20,916 nucleotides of DNA from a virus. Both the position numbers and the translations under genes were made by a program. The stretch spans positions 1 through 20,916 of the IMG/VR virus record IMGVR_UViG_3300047472_000041; one strand, given 5' to 3'. Shown here in pieces: positions 2,958 to 15,334 of the stretch. The notes beneath the pieces were generated by a model that worked only from the letters and a program-made list of their open reading frames with translations, was not told the DNA's origin and searched no databases. Every line of letters begins with the position of its first letter. Positions within the stretch are counted from its first letter, which is position 1.

Positions 2958-3806
2958 ATGGCACATGAACTACAGCGCCTAGCGGCCTCTGCGTGGGGTG
3001 TCCCTCACCTCATCACTCAGGATGCATTGTCTCCCATCCTTGAATATCTGTCAAGCCGTAATAATGGTGTTTCGCCAGTGTTCGCAGTCGTACAAGACTC
3101 CAAGCACGCCCCTAAGAAGGCTGAAAAGATTGGTGGCGTAGGTGAGATTTTGATCGACGGCGCTTTAACCGCGAAGCCAATTAAAGCTGAGTGTGCACCA
3201 GAGGGAGTTAGCTACGCCAGCATCCTCAGCGAAGCTCGTGAGCTTATCAAGATGGGTGTTGACACTATTGTGCTCACGCATTCGTCGCCCGGTGGAGAGG
3301 CCATGCATGCGTTCAGTTGTGCAGCCACACTAAGGTCGATGGCTGATGAAGCTGGTGTAGAGCTTATCTCCTACGTTGACACTTATAGCGCTAGTGCAAG
3401 CTACCTTATCGCATGTGTTGCAGATATGGTTGTTATGCACCCTGAAGCTAAAGTTGGCTCCATCGGATGTGTGTGCGCGGTTGCGGACTCCAGCAAAGCA
3501 CTTGATATGGCAGGCGTAAAAATTCATTACATCGCCAGTACTCCCGGCAAGACCCCCTTCAAAAATGATGGAAGCTTTTCCGATAAGTTCCTCGAAGATA
3601 TGCAAGCAGACGTTACGCGTTTAGGTAATAAGTTTGCTGCGCACGTTCAATCACACACCGGCATCTCTCTTCAGGAAATTGCAGAGATGGATGCTCAAAT
3701 GTTCCACGCAGATGAAGCCCTGCAAAACGGCCTAGCCAACGCAGTTATGGATCACACCGAATTTGCCAACTGGTTGGCTGACAAGAAGGGAAAGAAAAAT
3801 GCTTAA
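2958..3806 (+). CDS. S49/SppA-like head maturation protease (lambda gpC-like)
   Basis: This is a ClpP-fold serine protease that in lambda-type heads cleaves scaffold and portal or capsid termini inside the prohead. Of 282 residues, 60-275 carry the S49 core. VLTHSSPGGEA (105-115) is the substrate-strand/glycine motif. TYSASASYLIA (142-152) holds the probable nucleophile Ser146, aligned to the SGGY of SppA. VGSIGCV (166-172) is the conserved strand. Lys202 in PFKNDGSF is the likely general base; the Ser-Lys spacing of 56 residues is close to that of bacterial SppA. Active-site numbers come from my own alignment by motif. There is no signal peptide, as expected for a phage rather than a cell-envelope SppA. 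AAGGAG overlaps the portal stop. The gene ends 8 bases inside the next one, so the scaffold is translationally coupled to it. Confidence 0.92.
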   Translation: MAHELQRLAASAWGVPHLITQDALSPILEYLSSRNNGVSPVFAVVQDSKHAPKKAEKIGGVGEILIDGALTAKPIKAECAPEGVSYASILSEARELIKMGVDTIVLTHSSPGGEAMHAFSCAATLRSMADEAGVELISYVDTYSASASYLIACVADMVVMHPEAKVGSIGCVCAVADSSKALDMAGVKIHYIASTPGKTPFKNDGSFSDKFLEDMQADVTRLGNKFAAHVQSHTGISLQEIAEMDAQMFHADEALQNGLANAVMDHTEFANWLADKKGKKNA

Positions 3807-5914: not shown

Positions 5915-6361
5915 ATGATTCTTGATCCCACCTCTGACATCGGAAAAATCCGCCTACGAATCGCCGACTATAGTGATTTGCCCCTGCTCAGTGATTCGGT
6001 CATCGTATCTACTTTAGCAGACTGTAACGGCAACCTCCCTAAAGCCGCCAAAATTTGTGCCACGTACGTGCTAGGCATGCTTGCACACAAGACACATCGT
6101 CGCATGGCAACTCTGGAAATTTGGGGAAACGAAGCGTATCAGTCGTACCGAGACTACCTCCTACTCACTGTGACGCGGCCTGAATTCATGGATTTGTCCC
6201 CCATTCCGTACAGTGCGAATGCGGAGTCTAATCCACTACTCGATTTTCAGAAGTCGTGGAATCAGAACTTTGTAAATGGTAGTGAGCAACAACAGAATAA
6301 CCACCTTGCTGCACTCAGCCCTAACGATGGCTCCAAGTATGGCCCCTTCGGAGGCTTCTAA
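5915..6361 (+). CDS. Head-tail connector (adaptor, HK97 gp6-like position)
   Basis: The 148-residue protein probably forms the adaptor ring under the portal. The first 100 residues are predicted mostly helical (IGKIRLRIADYSDLPLLSD, then AAKICATYVLGMLAHKT, then EAYQSYRDYLLL), like gp6/gp15-type adaptors that begin with a short D-x-R-x-x-I-x-D pattern. The last ~45 residues are Asn/Gln/Ser-rich and probably flexible. TAGGAG seven bases upstream supports the ATG. The stop overlaps the next start by one base (TAATG), so the two connectors are coupled. The assignment uses helix pattern, size and position between capsid and stopper; sequence similarity to a named family is only suggestive. Confidence 0.7.
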   Translation: MILDPTSDIGKIRLRIADYSDLPLLSDSVIVSTLADCNGNLPKAAKICATYVLGMLAHKTHRRMATLEIWGNEAYQSYRDYLLLTVTRPEFMDLSPIPYSANAESNPLLDFQKSWNQNFVNGSEQQQNNHLAALSPNDGSKYGPFGGF

Positions 6362-6750
6362 TGTCTAGCGATTTCCACCGCATGATTGCGGAGTTTATGC
6401 GAGAAGACGGCTTCGACGCTACCTTCCACAAGCAACTCCCAGCCGTCTCCAACGATGACGACGGCACAGTTTTCTCCGACACTACCCAATACCCTATCCG
6501 CGCTGTCAAGATGGACGTATTCGGAAACATGGCAGGTAATCGCACGAAGCTCGGCACGCTTATCCAAGAAGCCGACCAAGTGTTATATGTGCAGCCTAGG
6601 CAGGAGTCAGATGGCTTTTCTCTGATGGATGCCGATACCGCAGCAGACCGAGTAGAGATTAAAGGGAAGCTCTGGAAGATACTCGCACTCAAGGAGTACG
6701 ACCCGAGCGCTTCGGATTGCGTGCTTTACGAGATGTATATCAAGCGTTAA
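6361..6750 (+). CDS. Head-tail joining protein (stopper/head closure type)
   Basis: The 129-residue product is probably the stopper ring that seals packaged DNA and receives the tail. It shows the usual layout of this group: a short N-terminal helix (DFHRMIAEFMREDG), then a beta-rich body. Key segments are YPIRAVKMDVFGNMAGNRT, LIQEADQVLYVQP, a DRVEIKGKLWKILALKEYD strand pair, and a C-terminal VLYEMYIKR strand. The I-x-G-x-x-W-K-I pattern near the end is typical of head-closure proteins. The start overlaps the preceding stop codon. After the stop there is a 72-base gap before the large accessory genes, the point where the usual head-to-tail order is interrupted. Confidence 0.75.
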   Translation: MSSDFHRMIAEFMREDGFDATFHKQLPAVSNDDDGTVFSDTTQYPIRAVKMDVFGNMAGNRTKLGTLIQEADQVLYVQPRQESDGFSLMDADTAADRVEIKGKLWKILALKEYDPSASDCVLYEMYIKR

Positions 6751-6822: not shown

Positions 6823-9800
6823 ATGGCATTGGATTTAAATTTCGACGGCACTCCGGTATTTGTCGCCGGTGATTACGGTAAGGCACTGCGTGCATCGGTT
6901 GGCACCATTCAGGGCAATCCCTTCGCCGGTCAAACACAAGTTACAATTGAGTGGACCGGACGTGCTGGCGACACAACCAGCGAACAGTATATTTACGGCG
7001 GCGTAGGCAGCGCCACCTTGCGCATCTCTAGTGAGGGCAAGGCGGAGGCAACTATCTATGTTCCGGGCACACACGTCTTTACAAGTAACGTCCTGATTGA
7101 TGACACTAACCGCCACACCCTCGCACTGACACTCGACACAGTTGCGGGTGCTGGGTTCTGGGTGGATGGTGTGTTGGTTGATAGCAGGGCCGGTAGCCTA
7201 ACCTTTACTGACAATCCAGTATCGATTGGCAACCAGTACGGATATGGTGGGAACTTCCAAGGCGACACTGACGAATTCGCCATTACATCTGGCATTAAAT
7301 ACACCAGTACATACACGCCGGGGCCAGTGCTGAACAATCAGGCGAATCTGATTGCAGTTTACCATTTTCAGGATAACGGACTCAATAGCGCCGGATTGGC
7401 GCAGGGCGACAGCATTCCTCCAACAGCATCGTCTGCTGCTGTTGCTAATGGTACGCCATCGGTTGTAGCTATAACGATGTCTGAAGCGATGGACGCTGCT
7501 TTCACGCCAGCGGCCTCGACCTTCACCGTGAGTGGACATACTGTAACGAGCGTTTCCATTTCCGGCTCAGTTGTCAATCTGACGTGCTCCAGCGCCTTCG
7601 TCTACAGCGAAGCTGCGCGTACCGTGTCCTATACGCAAAATGGCACCAACAACCTGCGCGATGTTGCAGGTAACCCGCTCGCGAACTTCTCCAGCCTAGC
7701 TATCACGAATAACGTTTCGGCTGCTGGCGATACCACACCACCGTCCTTTGTCAGTGCTCAGGTTACGAATTCTCAGCCAGCAGTTATTCTGCTGACGATG
7801 AGTGAAACGCTGGCAGCGAGTGTACCTCCGAACAGCGCGTTTACCGCATCGGGTGGGCGCACTGTCACAGGCGTAAGCGTTACTGGCTCCGTTGTGTCGA
7901 TTACTGTCAACACGCCATATGTGTTCGGTGACACGATTACGATTGCATACACACAGCCGGGTACTAATCCGCGCTTGCAGGATGCTGCGACAACACCAAA
8001 CCTGACAGCCACCTTTGGTGCGCAGTCTGTGACAAATAACGTGGCCTTTGTGCCCGCTGCCCTGTCACGTTTTAATGGCTCGCTTGGAAGTGTGCTGGAT
8101 GTATGCAACACAAAAGAAGACTGGTGCACAGCGTTCATCAACGCTTTGGGCAGCAACCGCCGCCTAACCTGTTCCCGCAATGGCTCGGTATTCCTTGACA
8201 TCGCCCTGACTGGCGCAGTGACGAAAGTGGGCGGCAACATTGCCAGCTTCGGTAAAACTTCAACAGCATCGTCGCAGCTTGCGGCGGACCTCTCGACAGG
8301 TACGTGCACGCTGCGTATTGAGGGTAACGGCAATTACGTGCAAGGTACGCTGGGTCTGGCTGGATCGAACACTGATTTTCAAATGGATGCAAGCCCTACA
8401 ACGGGCGTCGTGACAGGCTTTGCGCTGGTGAATATGGGGCTGAAGGCACCTGTTGCGCTGAGTTCTGGTACAGGTTATCTGGCACCGACGTTGACAGCTA
8501 ATGCGCCAGCCACCATTGAAATCGAGGACTGGACTTCCGGCGCAAAAGGCGCGGTACTGAGCACGCCTATTGACGCACAGCGGCTGAATTGGGTCTTTGA
8601 CCATCCTTACGTTGCCGCTGGGATGGGCGACGTGGCTATTTTCCAAACCTCGACCCCGATTGTCTTTGGCGGCTTCGAGTTCGGTGCCACATTGTTTGCC
8701 ATGTCGGGACAAGCCAATTCGCAAGGCAGCGAGCCGGTGTATCAGGTGCTGATCGGGTGGAAACCAACATCGGCAAACTGGAACAACTATCCATTCTTCG
8801 ACGGCTACGTGGAAGGATCGACCGACACCTTTGCACCGCCATTCAAGGCAGTGATCCGCAAGGCCAACGGGGCGATTCTCAAGACGCATGAGATGCGCGA
8901 TGGTTTGCCGATCAACAGTGATTTGCTGCACGACAATCATCTGTCGCAGACTACCCCTGACGACCAATACAACAACGCCGACGCATATGCTTTCCCGATT
9001 CGTCCGCATATGCACTGTGCAGGGATGCTGCCTTGGCAGTCTGCTCGGCCAAAGATGAACCCAAACCTCAAGAACGTGATGCCGGGGTTCTCGCTGTCCT
9101 CGTTGCGTCCGAAGGTTTCGCGCACCCACTTCACGACAAACCAGACGCTGCCCATGTTCAATGGCCGCGACAGCATCAACGGCGTTTCCAACTTCTATAC
9201 GTCGCCCAAATGGGCTGCTGCACTTGGCAACCCAGCGAACTTCGAGCCTAATAACGACCCGTACACCTACGACATGACGGCCAATCCGCTTGTCAATTTG
9301 ACGGGGTGGGGCTACGAGCCGGGATCGTTCGGTATTCAAGATACGTTGACAGCACCGGGCGGAAGCCGCCACGACCGCATACCTGTACCGACCCCACTGG
9401 CGGTTCGCTTTACCAAGGCGGACTATGTGCGCCCGCGCGACGGTGCAACGATTGAAGAAATGGCGGATGCGTGGAATTTGAATATGTTCAATTTCCCGAT
9501 GCACTTTATCCGCAATGCTGCCACCTTTGAAACGCTCTCCCTGCAAATTGTGGATCAGGGCGGACTAGCTACCTCAAAAGGTTATTACAATGAGCTGGCC
9601 TATTACGGATCGCCTGCCACTTCCGTACCTCAGTTTGCGAACGGCCAAAACTTCACGAACCAGCATTACAAGGCGTACAAGGGAGCTTTTGTCGATAAAA
9701 ATTCGCGCTTGCCTTATGGCGGCTGCGCCTTTGACATTCTGCACAACTACAACAACCCTGCGTGGACTGCGTTTGCCTACAACAGCCCAATGCATGCTTA

Positions 9801-10743
9801 TGCAGCATTGCTACGTCAGGTTATGTCGCACATGCTGCACCCATCGAACAACGGCTCGAACAGCCCGGCTGGTGCCCAACACCCGTTCAACGGCCAATTA
9901 TATGGTTCGTCGTTCCTGATCCGCGATCAGGGCTGGTCACTGATGAACCTATCGCTTTCTTACTTGCTTGGAAGTAGCCATCCACAATTTGGCATTCTTA
10001 CCCAAATGACGGTGGACAGGATCGTGCGCGAGTGGGAAGCCATTTACGACTACGCCTATGTGCCGACGATGGTGGAACAGCGCACCACGATCTATTACAA
10101 GACGCTGCGCAACCTCGGAATTCCACTCGGATCGGATGGCTCGTTCAGTTCTTGGCACGCCGATAGCCGCAGTGCGCTGTCGTACTACCTTACCAGCGAC
10201 TTCCTGCTGCTGCGGCAGACTGGTCTGCTGGACATCATCTTGAACAAGTCGGAGAAGTGCAAACAAGCGTTTCTGTTCATGATTCGATGTCTGGATTTGG
10301 GGGCTGTTGACTATATTCTCGATACTGATGGGCGCGAAGAACCACTAGACGGATTCAACGTAACCAAAGGGCCGAATGTCCAGAATGCAAATGGCTACGA
10401 TTCTTGGGCTGACTGGGCTGTAAGTAATCCGAAAGGCCACCCCGATCAGGATTGGATTACGGCTATCGACGGTCGGAAGCGCCCGCTTTGGGGTTATCCA
10501 TGGGATCAGGATATCGCACAACACATGCGCTACCAATATGTGTGCTTCCGCCGCGACTACCTGCCAGAAGTGCCGTGCGAGCGCACCAACGGCATCGCGC
10601 TCGCCATTGCCAAATACAAGGGCTGGTACGACTACGTGGCAGCGGCAGCGGATGCGGGTGGGCAGGACTGGACATGGCTGTTCCCCGGCTTGACACCGAT
10701 CAATCTGCCCGAAACGCTGGCTCCTCTCACCGCTCTCGCCTAA
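6823..10743 (+). CDS. Giant virion-associated protein: LamG + two SwmB-like Ig repeats + unknown C-terminus
   Basis: This is probably a surface adhesin or fibre that touches host glycans; it is not a standard tail gene. Of 1306 residues, 1-195 resemble a LamG/concanavalin A-like jelly roll (LNFDGT start, IEWTGRAGD, GFWVDGVLVDS, IGNQYGYGGNFQGDTDEF, ending IAVYHFQDN). Residues 198-298 and 303-408 are two SwmB-like Ig repeats that share V-x-x-TMSE, the TVTSVSISGSVV / TVTGVSVTGSVV motif and SYTQNGTN / AYTQPGTN. Residues 413-545 look beta-rich. Residues 545-1306 match nothing I know. They are rich in Trp, Tyr, His and Asn, and from ~870 turn into helices (HAYAALLRQVMSHMLHP, SLMNLSLSYLLG, MTVDRIVREWEAIYDY), which could be an alpha-toroid enzyme such as a glycan lyase. 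No signal peptide is seen. AAAGG precedes the ATG. The C-terminal half looks more GC-rich than its neighbours, which may mean acquisition. Confidence 0.65.
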   Translation: MALDLNFDGTPVFVAGDYGKALRASVGTIQGNPFAGQTQVTIEWTGRAGDTTSEQYIYGGVGSATLRISSEGKAEATIYVPGTHVFTSNVLIDDTNRHTLALTLDTVAGAGFWVDGVLVDSRAGSLTFTDNPVSIGNQYGYGGNFQGDTDEFAITSGIKYTSTYTPGPVLNNQANLIAVYHFQDNGLNSAGLAQGDSIPPTASSAAVANGTPSVVAITMSEAMDAAFTPAASTFTVSGHTVTSVSISGSVVNLTCSSAFVYSEAARTVSYTQNGTNNLRDVAGNPLANFSSLAITNNVSAAGDTTPPSFVSAQVTNSQPAVILLTMSETLAASVPPNSAFTASGGRTVTGVSVTGSVVSITVNTPYVFGDTITIAYTQPGTNPRLQDAATTPNLTATFGAQSVTNNVAFVPAALSRFNGSLGSVLDVCNTKEDWCTAFINALGSNRRLTCSRNGSVFLDIALTGAVTKVGGNIASFGKTSTASSQLAADLSTGTCTLRIEGNGNYVQGTLGLAGSNTDFQMDASPTTGVVTGFALVNMGLKAPVALSSGTGYLAPTLTANAPATIEIEDWTSGAKGAVLSTPIDAQRLNWVFDHPYVAAGMGDVAIFQTSTPIVFGGFEFGATLFAMSGQANSQGSEPVYQVLIGWKPTSANWNNYPFFDGYVEGSTDTFAPPFKAVIRKANGAILKTHEMRDGLPINSDLLHDNHLSQTTPDDQYNNADAYAFPIRPHMHCAGMLPWQSARPKMNPNLKNVMPGFSLSSLRPKVSRTHFTTNQTLPMFNGRDSINGVSNFYTSPKWAAALGNPANFEPNNDPYTYDMTANPLVNLTGWGYEPGSFGIQDTLTAPGGSRHDRIPVPTPLAVRFTKADYVRPRDGATIEEMADAWNLNMFNFPMHFIRNAATFETLSLQIVDQGGLATSKGYYNELAYYGSPATSVPQFANGQNFTNQHYKAYKGAFVDKNSRLPYGGCAFDILHNYNNPAWTAFAYNSPMHAYAALLRQVMSHMLHPSNNGSNSPAGAQHPFNGQLYGSSFLIRDQGWSLMNLSLSYLLGSSHPQFGILTQMTVDRIVREWEAIYDYAYVPTMVEQRTTIYYKTLRNLGIPLGSDGSFSSWHADSRSALSYYLTSDFLLLRQTGLLDIILNKSEKCKQAFLFMIRCLDLGAVDYILDTDGREEPLDGFNVTKGPNVQNANGYDSWADWAVSNPKGHPDQDWITAIDGRKRPLWGYPWDQDIAQHMRYQYVCFRRDYLPEVPCERTNGIALAIAKYKGWYDYVAAAADAGGQDWTWLFPGLTPINLPETLAPLTALA
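7414..8046 (+). repeat. Two SwmB-like Ig-type protein repeats (~100 residues each)
   Basis: Residues 198-298 and 303-408 of the 1306-residue protein repeat the same order of motifs: P-P-x-x-x-S-A, V-x-x-TMSE, F-T-x-SG, TVT-x-VS, GSVV and YTQ-x-GTN. They end in near-identical AITNNV / SVTNNV. The repeat is clear in protein; at DNA level it has diverged. Such repeats act as spacers or sugar-binding sandwiches in surface proteins. Confidence 0.75.
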
Positions 10744-10752
10744 AGGATTTTA

Positions 10753-13563
10753 ATGACTACGCAAATTACAAAAACCTTTGGTGCTAGCGGGGATTATACA
10801 ACCTTTGCTCAACTTAAGGCATACATCGGCAGTCTTGACTTGATAGCGCTCGACCAGAACGTTATCATCCGCATGTCAGGGGAAATGGTTTGGCCTGATG
10901 GGCAATCAATGGCACCGTTGACAGCAGACGATAACCGCAGGGTTTCGCTAATGCCAGCGGTGGGGGAGGGAGTGAATGACCTGTTCCGCACTACGCTGGA
11001 CAAAGGGAACAGCGGCGCTTCGATCCGTTTCCAGAGACTTGGAAGCGGAACACGACCGAAAGGCGGGCTGTGCATCTACGGCATGCGTTGGATTTTCGAC
11101 AGCGACAGTAGCGGGAATGCGGCGTTCCTTGCTACTGGCCCCCTCACGGGCGCTACCGCGTACGACAGTATCTATGCCTTCAACCGCATTTATATCAATT
11201 GTACTAACGGTGGTGAGATTATCAGACTCGATGGCACGAACGACGTTTTCCGTTCGCTCTGGTTGTCCAATCTGATTGTTGTTGATGGCCCCGGTAATGT
11301 GAAAGTGTTTGGGCCAATCGGCGCGCAGAAATTCTACGGCAACACGTTTGTCGCCATTAACGGCGCTGTAGATAACTGCACGGGTATTGGCATCTATGCG
11401 TATGCAGTGAACAGCAATTCGTTCACCAATTTCGCTATGCCTTTCGATACCAATCCGTACTACGACCGTATCGGGAGTAACTTCTGCAACAAGACGCCAA
11501 CGGGCGGTTACACCGGCCCCGCTCTAACCGTCGTCACGGGAGCTAACTCGCTGCTGGTCAATGACGCCACCGACTACCGGCCAAAGGCAGCAGGCCCGCT
11601 AATTGGTACAGCAGGCGTTGAGTTGCGGTCTAGTTCTGACATTCTGGGGAATAACCGAGGCTTAACGCCTGATGCAGGAGCATGGCAGCTTGTAGCAGCA
11701 ACCCCAACGCCCACTGGTAAAATCACCAGCACAGTGATTTCCGGGCAAACGGTTACTGTTAGTGGTACAACGACTAATAGCCCGTCATCTGCCGTAGCCG
11801 AGCTAAATACAACTTCTCGTACAGGTAATAGCGGTGTTGTTCAAACTGGCGTTGCAGTTACTCTAGGCAGCGGTACGTTTACAGTGACATACTCCAATTG
11901 TAAAGTTGGTGAGTACATTCCTAAGATTACATTTGGCAACGCTGGTGGCAACAGTGATGCGACAGATGCAACTTTGGTGGAAATCGCTGGTGCGACAGGT
12001 GTTGCTCAGGTGTACTCCGTCACAGGTAACGCACTGACTATTAGTGGCACTACGGCAGGCTCCCCAGTCTCTGGACAGTTGCTGATCCCACCTGCTACTA
12101 CGAATCCTAAAGGTGCAACCACACAGACGATTGCTTTGACACTAGGTAGTGGTACGTTCAGTAAAACAGCAGACCTACCTCCCGGCAATTACGCGGCAGG
12201 CATTCTCACCTTTACAACATCTGCGGGCAAGAGCTTCCCACAACCCGGCACTGTTCCTGTATCAATTATTGGTATTAGTGGGTCTCCTCAAGCACCGCCA
12301 GTTTCTGGCTCAGGTGAGCCTCCAGTGGACCCTCCCTCAGATACTCAAGCACCTGCTCTACCAAACGCCCTCGTAATCGGAAACATCACTTCGAGCGGCT
12401 TTACTCCGTCGTGGCAAGCTGCTTCGGATAATACCGCAGTTACAGGGTATGACGTTTCTGTCGATACGGGCACACCAAGCTTTGTGAATGTGGGTAATGT
12501 CCTCACTATCCCGGTCACAGGTAAGCTCTCTTCGACAACGTACACAGTAAGAGTTCGTGCGTACGATGCTGCGGGTAATAAGTCGAACGTAGTGACAGCT
12601 TCTGCTACGACAGCAGCCCCAGCAGGTGATACACAAGACCCTGTAATGTCTGGCAGCGTCACTATCAGTGCTGTCTCGCTGAATAGCTTCTCAGCCTCGT
12701 GGCAAGCAGGCTCTGATAACGTGGGTGTAGTGAGCTATGAGATTAGTGTGGACACAGGTACGCCTAGCTACACGAACATCGGCAACACGCTCAACTACGC
12801 AGCAACTGGCCTAGCTCCTACAACAGCCTACACTGTGCGGGTGCGTGCCGTTGACGCTGTCGGCAGGAAGTCTGCGCCGATTCTTGGCACTGCCACTACG
12901 CAAACTCCTGTGCAGCTTGACACAGAGAACCCAGTCATTCCGGGTGCGCTTGTAATTACGAACATTACACCAACAGGTTGCACAGTTGGCTGGCAGGCGG
13001 GTACGGACAACTTGGGCATTGCAGGGTACGAGGTTAGTGTTGATACAGGCACACCAAGTTACTCTCAAGCTGGAATGTCTTTGAGCAAGGTGGTAGCTGG
13101 CCTTCTGCCGCAGACGACTTATACCTTGCGTGTCAGGGCATTTGATGCGGCGAATAACAGAAGCGCACCACTCACGGCTACGTTTACTACTGATGCTCAA
13201 CAGGTTGGAGTGCTGGTTCCTGTCATCTACAAGCAAGCTAATGGAGTCCCAACGCAGGTACTTCTCGCACTCCCAACAAGCGCCTGCACTCTAAGCTACT
13301 TGGCTAATGGATCGCAAGAACTCGTACTGTTCAATAGGGGTAATGCGGATGTGGTTGTAACGTTGAGAGGGGACGCTGCGGGGGTTATCAACGTCAAAGG
13401 TGCCATTACAAAAACACTTGATCTTTCTACAGGTTTGCCTATCACAGTGCCAGCGGGGAAGTTTGCAACGTTGAGACTTGACGCCGCTGCTGCCTACCTT
13501 AAAGGTAACGTAACTGTTGCAGCCGCTACTGGGGGGGTTGTCTTTGCAGGTGTACTGCAATAA
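10753..13563 (+). CDS. Modular fibre/adhesin: beta-helix + Ig repeats + three FN3 + shared C-terminal module
   Basis: The 936-residue protein is probably a virion fibre. Residues 1-318 look like a right-handed beta-helix: T-F-G-A-S-G-D-Y-TTFAQL start, repeated short strands with Asn turns, and the closing RPKAAGPLIG ... DILGNNRG ... DAGAW motif typical of parallel beta-helix repeats. Residues 319-412 and 418-508 are two related Ig-like repeats (VTVSGTTTNSP / LTISGTTAGSP and TLGSGTF in both). A Pro/Ser/Gly linker follows (513-529), then three FN3 domains at 530-622, 626-717 and 723-814. Residues 818-936 form a beta-sandwich-like module closely related to the separate 119-residue protein at 14502. 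AAAGGA precedes the ATG, nine bases after the 1306-residue gene, so the two are one unit. The role is inferred: beta-helix domains often bind or cut polysaccharide, but I see no certain catalytic residues. Confidence 0.75.
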   Translation: MTTQITKTFGASGDYTTFAQLKAYIGSLDLIALDQNVIIRMSGEMVWPDGQSMAPLTADDNRRVSLMPAVGEGVNDLFRTTLDKGNSGASIRFQRLGSGTRPKGGLCIYGMRWIFDSDSSGNAAFLATGPLTGATAYDSIYAFNRIYINCTNGGEIIRLDGTNDVFRSLWLSNLIVVDGPGNVKVFGPIGAQKFYGNTFVAINGAVDNCTGIGIYAYAVNSNSFTNFAMPFDTNPYYDRIGSNFCNKTPTGGYTGPALTVVTGANSLLVNDATDYRPKAAGPLIGTAGVELRSSSDILGNNRGLTPDAGAWQLVAATPTPTGKITSTVISGQTVTVSGTTTNSPSSAVAELNTTSRTGNSGVVQTGVAVTLGSGTFTVTYSNCKVGEYIPKITFGNAGGNSDATDATLVEIAGATGVAQVYSVTGNALTISGTTAGSPVSGQLLIPPATTNPKGATTQTIALTLGSGTFSKTADLPPGNYAAGILTFTTSAGKSFPQPGTVPVSIIGISGSPQAPPVSGSGEPPVDPPSDTQAPALPNALVIGNITSSGFTPSWQAASDNTAVTGYDVSVDTGTPSFVNVGNVLTIPVTGKLSSTTYTVRVRAYDAAGNKSNVVTASATTAAPAGDTQDPVMSGSVTISAVSLNSFSASWQAGSDNVGVVSYEISVDTGTPSYTNIGNTLNYAATGLAPTTAYTVRVRAVDAVGRKSAPILGTATTQTPVQLDTENPVIPGALVITNITPTGCTVGWQAGTDNLGIAGYEVSVDTGTPSYSQAGMSLSKVVAGLLPQTTYTLRVRAFDAANNRSAPLTATFTTDAQQVGVLVPVIYKQANGVPTQVLLALPTSACTLSYLANGSQELVLFNRGNADVVVTLRGDAAGVINVKGAITKTLDLSTGLPITVPAGKFATLRLDAAAAYLKGNVTVAAATGGVVFAGVLQ
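12340..13194 (+). repeat. Three tandem fibronectin type III repeats (~92 residues each)
   Basis: Each unit begins D-T-x-x-P and has SWQA / GWQAG-x-DN near residue 25, then the diagnostic VSVDTGTPS (SVDTGTPS in all three), T-x-Y-T-x-RVRA and a D-A-x-x-x-x-S end. Units run 12340-12618, 12628-12903 and 12919-13194. Similarity among the units is high in protein and partly visible in DNA (gatacaggcacaccaag-type segment in units 1 and 3), which points to internal duplication. Confidence 0.92.
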
Positions 13564-13570
13564 AATTGGA

Positions 13571-13592
13571 GAGTGCTTGCAATACAGCACTC
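13571..13592 (+). terminator. Hairpin after the fibre gene, weak terminator or operator
   Basis: GAGTGCT (13571-13577) and AGCACTC (13586-13592) are perfect 7-base arms around an 8-base loop, eight bases after the 936-residue gene stops. The following ACTATTTCC is only moderately T-rich, so termination would be weak. Ten bases further on begins the -35 of the next promoter, so it may instead separate the two transcripts or bind a regulator. Confidence 0.45.
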
Positions 13593-13601
13593 ACTATTTC
13601 C

Positions 13602-13630
13602 TTGACAAAACAGTGCCCTTGTGATATAAT
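13602..13630 (+). promoter_or_regulatory. Consensus sigma70 promoter with extended -10, upstream of tail genes
   Basis: TTGACA (13602-13607) and TATAAT (13625-13630) are exact consensus with a 17-base spacer, and TG at 13622-13623 extends the -10. A start near 13637 leaves a ~14-base leader with TGAGGA before the ATG at 13651. It is the twin in design of the promoter at 1394, but lacks the 7-base spacer dyad. It would make tail gene expression independent of read-through across the long fibre genes. Confidence 0.85.
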
Positions 13631-13650
13631 TCTATTTAATTGAGGAACGC

Positions 13651-14100
13651 ATGACAGGCTTTGTATTTGATATCAAAGCGTTTGAGAATGCAGCCCTACT
13701 CGAAATGAATAAAGCCCTCTGTAGAGATGCAGAGGAGCTTTTCTCTGAGGTAGTTGTAGAGTCCCCCGACCCTCCCGGCGTAGGCGGCTTTGCCAAGGGT
13801 CTGCTGAAGAATAGCTGGTACATCGATGCAGCAGGTGACACTGACAATACAGTTGGCACCACTCCAAACACCACAGGGGCCGATAGCCTCTCTCGCATCA
13901 AAGCAGTACTCACCACTCTTCCGTTTTATGGTAGGGATGGTGCTGTGTCGCTTACTAATTCACTTGAATACGCCTACAGAGCCGAAGCCATTGGGTGGCC
14001 AGCCGGCGAGGGCACCAACGGATTTGTTTGGTCAGGTCGTGTCGGACCCTACGCCATGGTGCAGACAGCTATAACTAACTTTAAGGCTAAGCACCTATGA
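13651..14100 (+). CDS. Tail completion protein, HK97 gp10/lambda Z-like
   Basis: The 149-residue protein resembles the HK97 gp10-like family, which caps the finished tail at its head-proximal end or joins it to the connector. The family pattern is an N-terminal helix (FENAALLEMNKALCRDAEELF), P-D-P-P-G-V-G-G, then G-L-L-K-NSWYI, a central beta region, and SLTNSLEYAYRAE-x-I-G-WPAG (L-x-N-x-x-x-Y-A-x-x-x-E-x-G). It ends with a helix that stops in KAKHL. TGAGGA supports the ATG. The stop overlaps the next start in ATGA. It is the first gene of the transcript from the 13602 promoter and resumes the standard gene order broken at 6750. Confidence 0.82.
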   Translation: MTGFVFDIKAFENAALLEMNKALCRDAEELFSEVVVESPDPPGVGGFAKGLLKNSWYIDAAGDTDNTVGTTPNTTGADSLSRIKAVLTTLPFYGRDGAVSLTNSLEYAYRAEAIGWPAGEGTNGFVWSGRVGPYAMVQTAITNFKAKHL

Positions 14101-14501
14101 GCATTATAACAGCGCGCGCGACAATCACTAAGGCTTTGGCGTCTTGGGCAGCGAGCAAGAGCCTGCCACTCTCACGGGAACAGCAAGCTTTCACGAAGCC
14201 TGCCAACAACGGCACCTACTTGGAACTCAACATCATTCCAGCTAAAACAATCTTAGCATCCATAGACGGAGAGCGCAAGCGTTATCTTGGCACCGTTATC
14301 ATCAACATTTGGACTAAGGATAATCAAGGCACTGGCGAAGCTGAGAAGCTTGCTGAAGAGCTTGCTAATTTGTTCTCTGTAGTGCCTAAGAAGCAGATGC
14401 CTGTCAGTGTTGAAGAAGTACCTCACACGAGCAAGCCTGTTCCTGACGGTTCTGGTTACTCGATCATGAGTGTGAAGTTCCCCTACCGTCTAGAGGTTTA
14501 A
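14097..14501 (+). CDS. Tail terminator protein, lambda gpU-like/DUF4128
   Basis: The 134-residue product probably forms the ring that stops tail-tube growth and binds the connector. It has an N-terminal helix (ITARATITKALASWAASK), a strand with NGTYLELNIIPA, the RYLGTVIINIWT strand pair followed by GTGEAEKLAEELANLF, and a final GYSIMSVKFPYRL strand. This is the order and spacing of DUF4128-type terminators. The ATG overlaps the preceding stop in ATGA, so its translation is coupled to the completion protein. The next gene starts directly after its TAA with no spare base, which suggests reinitiation there too. Confidence 0.8.
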   Translation: MSIITARATITKALASWAASKSLPLSREQQAFTKPANNGTYLELNIIPAKTILASIDGERKRYLGTVIINIWTKDNQGTGEAEKLAEELANLFSVVPKKQMPVSVEEVPHTSKPVPDGSGYSIMSVKFPYRLEV

Positions 14502-14861
14502 ATGGCAACAGTCCCAGTAGTAGCAAAAAGTGCTTCCTCCGCAGTTCCCCTCAACTCTATGCCTATAGCCACATCTGGAGACACCCTCCAATACACGAGG
14601 AACAAGGGCCAAGAACTCTGGCTGTTTAACACGAGTAGTAGTGCTGTTACGGTGACTATCGACGGTAATGCAGGGGTTGCAGTGCTCGTCCCCGGTACAG
14701 CAGGTACAACAGTCGATGTAACAGCGGGCTTACCAATTTCCATCCCCGCCGAAGCGTTCGTGTACCTCCCGTTGGATCGTGCAGAGGCATTTTTGCAGGG
14801 GGTGGTTTTCATCTCCGCATCCACAGGTTCGGTTGTCCGAGCGGTAGTAACCACACTTTAA
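14502..14861 (+). CDS. Small beta-rich protein, stand-alone copy of the fibre C-terminal module
   Basis: I do not recognise a named family. The 119 residues are Val/Ala/Thr-rich with no Cys and look like a beta-sandwich. Residues 36-116 align without gaps to residues 854-934 of the 936-residue fibre; I count 37 identities in 81. Shared blocks are QEL-x-LFN, TAGLPISIPA / STGLPITVPA, and the TG-x-VV near the end. The fibre module is also ~119 residues long, so the whole protein corresponds to one domain. The gene lies between tail terminator and tail tube, where most related phages have nothing, and begins at the base after the previous stop; AGAGG lies in the preceding coding sequence. It could be a decoration protein of tail or neck, or a partner that assembles with the fibre. 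The role is inferred only. Confidence 0.7.
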   Translation: MATVPVVAKSASSAVPLNSMPIATSGDTLQYTRNKGQELWLFNTSSSAVTVTIDGNAGVAVLVPGTAGTTVDVTAGLPISIPAEAFVYLPLDRAEAFLQGVVFISASTGSVVRAVVTTL

Positions 14862-14881: not shown

Positions 14882-15334
14882 ATGGCATCCCAAGCATTTT
14901 CGAGCGCAGGCTCTAAGTTCTACCTGTCGGCTGGCGTTCCAGCAACCATCACAGAGTCGGGCTTCTCGGCACTGACGTATACAGTGGTGAAGGAAGTTAC
15001 CGAAGTTGGTACCATCGGTCCAGAGAGCGCCGTTATTCAACACGTCCCTCTGGATGAGAACACCACGTACAAACTGAAGGGTGTTCGTAATAACGGCACA
15101 CTAAGTCTGAAAGGCGGACGCGTCCCGAGTGACCCCGGCCAGACTCTACTTATCGCTGCGGAGGCATCGAATGCTCCTTACTCGATGAAAATTGAACTGC
15201 AAGATGGTTCGATGATCTACGCTCAGTGCCTCGTCACTTCGTACAAAACCAACATTGGTAGTGCTGGTCAGATTACCGGCTTTGAGTCGAACGTTGAAAT
15301 CTCGGGTGACGTTATCGACGTTGCTGCTGACTAA
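14882..15334 (+). CDS. Major tail tube protein, lambda gpV-like
   Basis: This subunit stacks as hexameric rings around the tape measure. At 150 residues it fits small tube proteins. N-terminal ASQAFSSAGSKFYLSAG is followed by FSALTYTVVKEVTEVGTIG (typical: small beta-barrel after a loop near residues 25-45), then KLKGVRNNGTLSLKGGR and D-P-G-Q-TLL-I-A-A, and ends with the QITGFESNVEISGDV strand pair; the G-F-x-x-x-V-x-I-S-G-x end is characteristic. Position before the chaperone and tape-measure genes confirms it. The Shine-Dalgarno (AGAAAGAAA) is modest, yet codons such as CTG and TCG are frequent. A strong hairpin follows the stop by 15 bases, fitting a product needed in large excess over the genes downstream. 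Confidence 0.88.
   Translation: MASQAFSSAGSKFYLSAGVPATITESGFSALTYTVVKEVTEVGTIGPESAVIQHVPLDENTTYKLKGVRNNGTLSLKGGRVPSDPGQTLLIAAEASNAPYSMKIELQDGSMIYAQCLVTSYKTNIGSAGQITGFESNVEISGDVIDVAAD

Follow-up and report, generated by a model that had tools for sequence, protein, structure and literature searches.

The locus studied here raises the question of why a phage would encode what appears to be the same small protein twice, once as a free-standing gene beside the tail tube and once as the C-terminal end of a long fibre. The window, by which we mean the whole stretch of 20,916 nucleotides analysed (positions 1 to 20,916 of IMG/VR virus record IMGVR_UViG_3300047472_000041), had been given a sequence-only reading, according to which one attachment or oligomerisation module serves both as a decoration subunit and as the anchor of a modular adhesin. 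The features that bear on this question are the following.

6361..6750, forward strand: head closure gene (Hc1-like; phrog_161, E 2.8e-7), the left border of the adhesin slot
6823..10743, forward strand: fibre A, 1306 aa, which opens the adhesin block; LamG-like, Big_5 and SWM-repeat domains, without the module
10753..13563, forward strand: fibre B, 936 aa; N-terminal part of ~320 residues, Ig-like middle, three FN3 domains and the C-terminal module
12340..13197, forward strand: FN3 region of fibre B, residues ~530-815; three stretches matching Pfam fn3 (E 4.5e-22)
13210..13563, forward strand: fused module, the C-terminal ~117 residues of fibre B (820-936)
13571..13592, forward strand: short stem-loop downstream of the fibre B stop, with T-rich sequence behind it
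13602..13630, forward strand: sigma-70-type promoter sequence, a perfect TTGACA-17-TATAAT with TG preceding the -10, downstream of the fibre block and ahead of the neck gene
13651..14100, forward strand: neck or tail completion-like protein (phrog_169, E 0.008), the right border of the slot
14097..14501, forward strand: tail terminator (PF13554, E 3.5e-18; phrog_179)
14502..14861, forward strand: free module, the 119-aa tail-linked protein, whose start codon abuts the terminator stop
14882..15334, forward strand: tail tube, the major tail protein (phrog_158, E 7e-17)

Both open reading frames, 10753-13563 (936 aa) and 14502-14861 (119 aa), were confirmed, and the earlier hand count of 37 identities in 81 ungapped positions (fibre residues 854-934 against 36-116 of the small protein) was reproduced. 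The gap-free match is longer than first counted, running from 822 to 934 in the fibre and from 4 to 116 in the small protein. The Smith-Waterman score of the pair was 206, compared with 47 +/- 6.6 for shuffled sequences (n=1000, maximum 80), and none of the 13 other window proteins tested scored above 47 against the small protein. A tblastn search with residues 3-116 of the small protein (114 residues) matched the fibre at 42% with an E-value of 4e-22, and the HMM-HMM comparison that the sequence-only reading had called for, run between the free members of the family and the two fully known fused modules, gave a probability of 99.3% and an E-value of 5e-20. The gap-free match, the tblastn result and the profile comparison together indicate that practically the entire small protein is contained in the fibre, and we conclude from the sequences that fibre residues ~822-934 are homologous to the 119-aa protein over almost its full length. 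The idea of one module used twice, on its own as a tail-linked protein and at the conserved end of an FN3-bearing modular adhesin, thus holds at the level of homology. Chance similarity or a low-complexity artefact is ruled out by the shuffles, the profile comparison and the independent relatives.

Structure prediction of each module alone, which had also been proposed, gave matching folds, with the strands and helix following one another in the same order, shifted by a constant 13 residues. The AF2 models (pLDDT 82 and pTM 0.71 for the free protein, pLDDT 77 and pTM 0.69 for the fused module) are both beta-sandwiches with one short helix and have identical top PDB neighbours; because they were built on the same sequences, this agreement is partly built in and does not constitute independent evidence. 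No solved structure matched the module by sequence. The nearest solved structures by fold were the Anabaena sensory rhodopsin transducer (ASRT) and TM1070, neither of them decisive at a Z of about 7, a value within the range for models without a clear match that may reflect merely a common arrangement. Among predicted viral proteins, close family members of 112-119 aa reached a TM of 0.78-0.89 to the model, and the lower-scoring fold matches include cyanophage proteins named as virion proteins.

The free protein belongs to a family of uncharacterised siphophage proteins of 112-125 aa, typically about 115 aa. A scan of viral contigs with a four-sequence alignment as query returned 27 loci, all encoding free-standing proteins, which measure 114-123 aa where the start is clear, and further free members were found in the Pseudomonas phages MR14 and Torfinnsbu, in Vibrio and Aeromonas phages and in phage TPWB-08. 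All eight GenBank copies are annotated as hypothetical, and we found no study of this family in the literature. No relative was found in bacterial genomes scanned with four close free copies as query, and Pfam gave nothing above its cut-off for the protein or the family (a PAAR match at E 0.056 and others under the cut-off were disregarded). The small protein of the window weakly matches phrog_16194, named "tail protein", over residues 10-101 (E 1.5e-4, the best value in the family); such a weak match is seen in only 4 of 25 members, and most have none.

The position of the small gene had been called unusual, and this is not borne out. At 36 loci where the gene context could be judged, with duplicates removed and the window included, the family gene adjoins the tail tube in 35. 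Sixteen of these loci, the window among them, have it between the tail terminator and the tail tube (the contig of one, L029, covers the tube side only), and in 19 it directly follows the tail tube, including the eight GenBank phages (two from Pseudomonas, four from a Vibrio collection, one from Aeromonas and one from a horsefly sample). In clade I a neck or tail completion-like gene is conserved beside it, and in clade II it stands between the tail tube and the gene preceding the tape measure. The sole exception is L020, whose only copy follows a fibre-like gene with no adjacent tail tube; this member (L020:5938-6294) lies downstream of a 628-aa fibre-like gene and a 172-aa gene. An insertion at an odd site was accordingly rejected, since the site is the conserved one of the family. 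In two of the 16 terminator-tube loci, L009 and L035, a homing-endonuclease-like gene separates the family gene from the tube; genes of this kind were seen at several boundaries of neck and tail genes (L009:6361-7089, with a DUF723 match; L035:2969-4114; L035:252-980; L011:6855-7871).

It is the fusion that is new, the free gene itself being widespread and in its usual place. When the complete records of 26 loci were searched with a profile, a second copy of the module turned up only in the window and in L011, where it is the C-terminal portion of a 337-aa protein that also has two FN3 domains; 24 of these 26 wholly searched records have a free copy without a fused partner. Searching with the fused modules themselves recovered L011 alone. 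The contig of L053 breaks off within the upstream gene, of which the final 20 codons remain; they end ..NVVFAGVLQ* and resemble the other two fused ends. The known set therefore consists of two full fused copies plus this remnant. Maximum-likelihood analysis of 34 sequences, rooted at the midpoint, unites the two full copies in a clade (100/97), which is sister to the free copies of the window, L011 and L053 (97/92), and these together are nested in a set that also holds L009 and L010 (99/94). Since both full fused copies sit beside the free copies of their own lineage, the fused form probably arose by duplication of the resident tail gene, and the simplest history for the window, L011 and L053 lineage is probably a single event of duplication and fusion. 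The tree disfavours an origin of the fused module in an unrelated phage.

Which end of fibre B faces the particle can be judged from its relatives. Residues 614-936, comprising FN3 domains and the module end, share 47% identity with the 337-aa L011 protein, and the N-terminal ~500 residues have no counterpart among the eight block proteins from relatives that were compared. Because the C-terminal end is kept and the N-terminus is replaced between the window and L011, the module end is the likely anchor; we infer this role from position and conservation. The slot between the head closure and neck genes points the same way. It is empty in L003, L009, L013, L014, L025 and L035 and filled by adhesin-type genes in other relatives, where the last gene of the slot may carry a different anchor: that of L034 ends in a Gp77 domain and that of L010 is a stand-alone Gp77 protein (both PF23148, a family named fiber-tail adaptor; E-values 3e-13 and 7e-21), and the last block gene of L028 ends in a domain resembling BppU_N (E 3e-4 when taken alone, just under the curated cut-off of Pfam; also phrog_1084). 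The end of the L055 block received no assignment. Fibre B itself has no BppU_N match at E up to 1, the only such domain in the blocks being that of L028. The exchanged N-terminus in L011 and these alternative anchors in the same slot support the terms "anchor" and "mix-and-match" that had been applied to the system. Of the proposed beta-helix, Ig and FN3 architecture, the FN3 part is confirmed by Pfam; the N-terminal ~320 residues, without a database match, are beta-helix-like by eye, and the middle region is likewise Ig-like by eye. The adhesin blocks of the relatives bear SASA esterase (L011:2491-4059 and L034:1825-4197), LamG and PcRGLX-type domains. A PcRGLX-like N-terminal domain in the block proteins L028:1892-4981 and L054:3187-7335 suggests polysaccharide lyase-type enzymes on the particle.

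The homology, the shared family, the neighbourhood of the free copies, the lineage-specific origin of the fused ones and the kept C-terminal and replaced N-terminal parts are taken directly from the data, and from them we propose, with moderate confidence, that the free protein is a small structural protein of siphophage tails and that its duplicated copy is the anchor of fibre B. The 119-aa protein would be a virion component, most likely a beta-sandwich subunit on the outside of the tail tube or at its terminator or neck end. The small tail gene would have been duplicated in an ancestor shared by the window phage, L011 and L053, and the duplicate would have been joined to the last gene of the adhesin block between the head closure and neck genes, supplying its C-terminal domain. 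By retaining the virion-binding surface of the free protein, the fibre copy would dock the fibre on the particle, with the FN3 repeats as a spacer and the exchangeable N-terminal domain directed outward, where it would act on host surface sugars. D27, invariant in the 24 free copies of alignment A2, is lost in the fused copies, as is D54, and for this reason their virion-binding surface is perhaps not intact. A more tentative extension, possible though clearly less probable, is that the free family occupies docking sites on the tail tube and that the copy of one lineage became the fibre anchor, sharing or competing for these sites, with many copies along the tail.

In most tailed-phage fibres the N-terminus is fixed and the C-terminus binds the host, and this usual orientation would favour a lectin-like host-binding module, displayed on the tail by the free protein and carried by the fibre as a C-terminal receptor-binding tip. 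One weak structural neighbour, the carbohydrate-binding module CBM_E1 (5klf, Z 5.5), fits this possibility, but neighbours at such Z values are unspecific. We regard it as unlikely, given that the window and L011 exchange the N-terminus and keep the C-terminal end, that the same slot in relatives ends in adaptor-type domains, and that the free protein stays beside the tail tube across phages of several host genera.

The clade II copies lie where assembly factors are usually encoded, after the tail tube and ahead of the gene that precedes the tape measure, and the protein is small and single-domain. The module could then serve chiefly for oligomerisation or as a chaperone-like cap, with the free protein aiding assembly of the tail or fibre and having no need to be present in the virion, and the L020 copy, following a fibre-like gene and a 172-aa gene, would fit such a role. 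Against this, the fused copy is built covalently into the fibre, phages that have no fused fibre maintain free copies, and the weak PHROG match names a tail protein, so that this explanation appears quite improbable. A variant of our preferred reading, in which free and fused modules bind each other and free subunits complete a ring round the fibre anchor, draws on the retention of both copies in the same genomes, on the lineage-specific motifs GQELxxFN and GLPIxxPA common to both, and on an excess of synonymous over non-synonymous differences in all comparisons, free and fused (a coarse test, with synonymous sites near saturation), but it is very unlikely on present evidence, and such binding cannot be the original function because nearly all wholly searched records lack a fused partner.

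The predicted promoter lies between the fibre block and the neck gene, and so the free module is probably transcribed with the neck, terminator and tube genes, separately from the fibre block. Of 14 clade-I phages checked, 11, the window among them, have a similar promoter sequence at this position, and these include some without a block. The stem-loop after fibre B, which L053 has too, is a weak terminator candidate, since terminator-like matches in a scan of the window were no more frequent than in shuffles. Elsewhere in the window, a second perfect TTGACA-17-TATAAT with TG before the -10 (1394-1422) lies upstream of the portal gene. The head protease differs in otherwise similar phages, being of the S49 (SppA-like) type in the window (2958-3806) and of the S78_2 (XkdF-like) type in L003:3289-4053.

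The sequence-only reading is mostly right in outline and partly supported, and the novelty shifts to a probable anchor gained by duplication of a tail protein. An unnamed tail-gene family thereby gains a testable function, and the locus offers a natural example of a phage recruiting a resident structural protein as an adhesin plug. Because the slot holds three unrelated anchor types in related phages, the display system appears to swap anchors as well as binding heads, and adhesin blocks of this sort may thereby become easier to recognise in other genomes.

Among known systems, the C-terminal Ig domain of lambda gpV and the MTP/TpeX extensions of 936 phages resemble the free protein in being small beta-sandwiches displayed by, or encoded beside, the tail tube; unlike these, it is a separate gene, with a putative display role and a predicted fold that is jelly-roll-like and not clearly Ig. 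The Gp77 fibre-tail adaptor of the Ralstonia podophage GP4 (PF23148; solved relative PDB 8jou) is likewise a small domain, either free or fused to the end of the last block protein, and occupies the same slot in L010 and L034. A relationship between Gp77 and the module was not supported, as there was no Pfam match and hhalign gave probabilities of 1.9% and 0.2%. As relatives bear other, known anchors in the same slot, the module is best seen as a new anchor within a known kind of modular display system. The closest likeness is to the neck passage structures of lactococcal 936 and TP901-1 phages (PMC6669499), in which an accessory fibre is encoded among the virion genes, with one conserved anchor domain, exchangeable outer parts and many relatives that have no such fibre. 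In the 936 phages a conserved BppU-type anchor, a domain proposed to anchor the structure, is combined with variable carbohydrate-binding, beta-helix or esterase parts (PMC6669499). Fibre B shows the corresponding gene arrangement, lying between the Hc1 and neck genes with its C-terminal end kept and its N-terminus replaced, in two full cases. Unlike the neck passage structure, whose anchor, a BppU beta-sandwich, is N-terminal and precedes a coiled coil (PMC6669499), fibre B would be held by a C-terminal anchor of another family, derived from a resident tail protein and combined with FN3 spacers.
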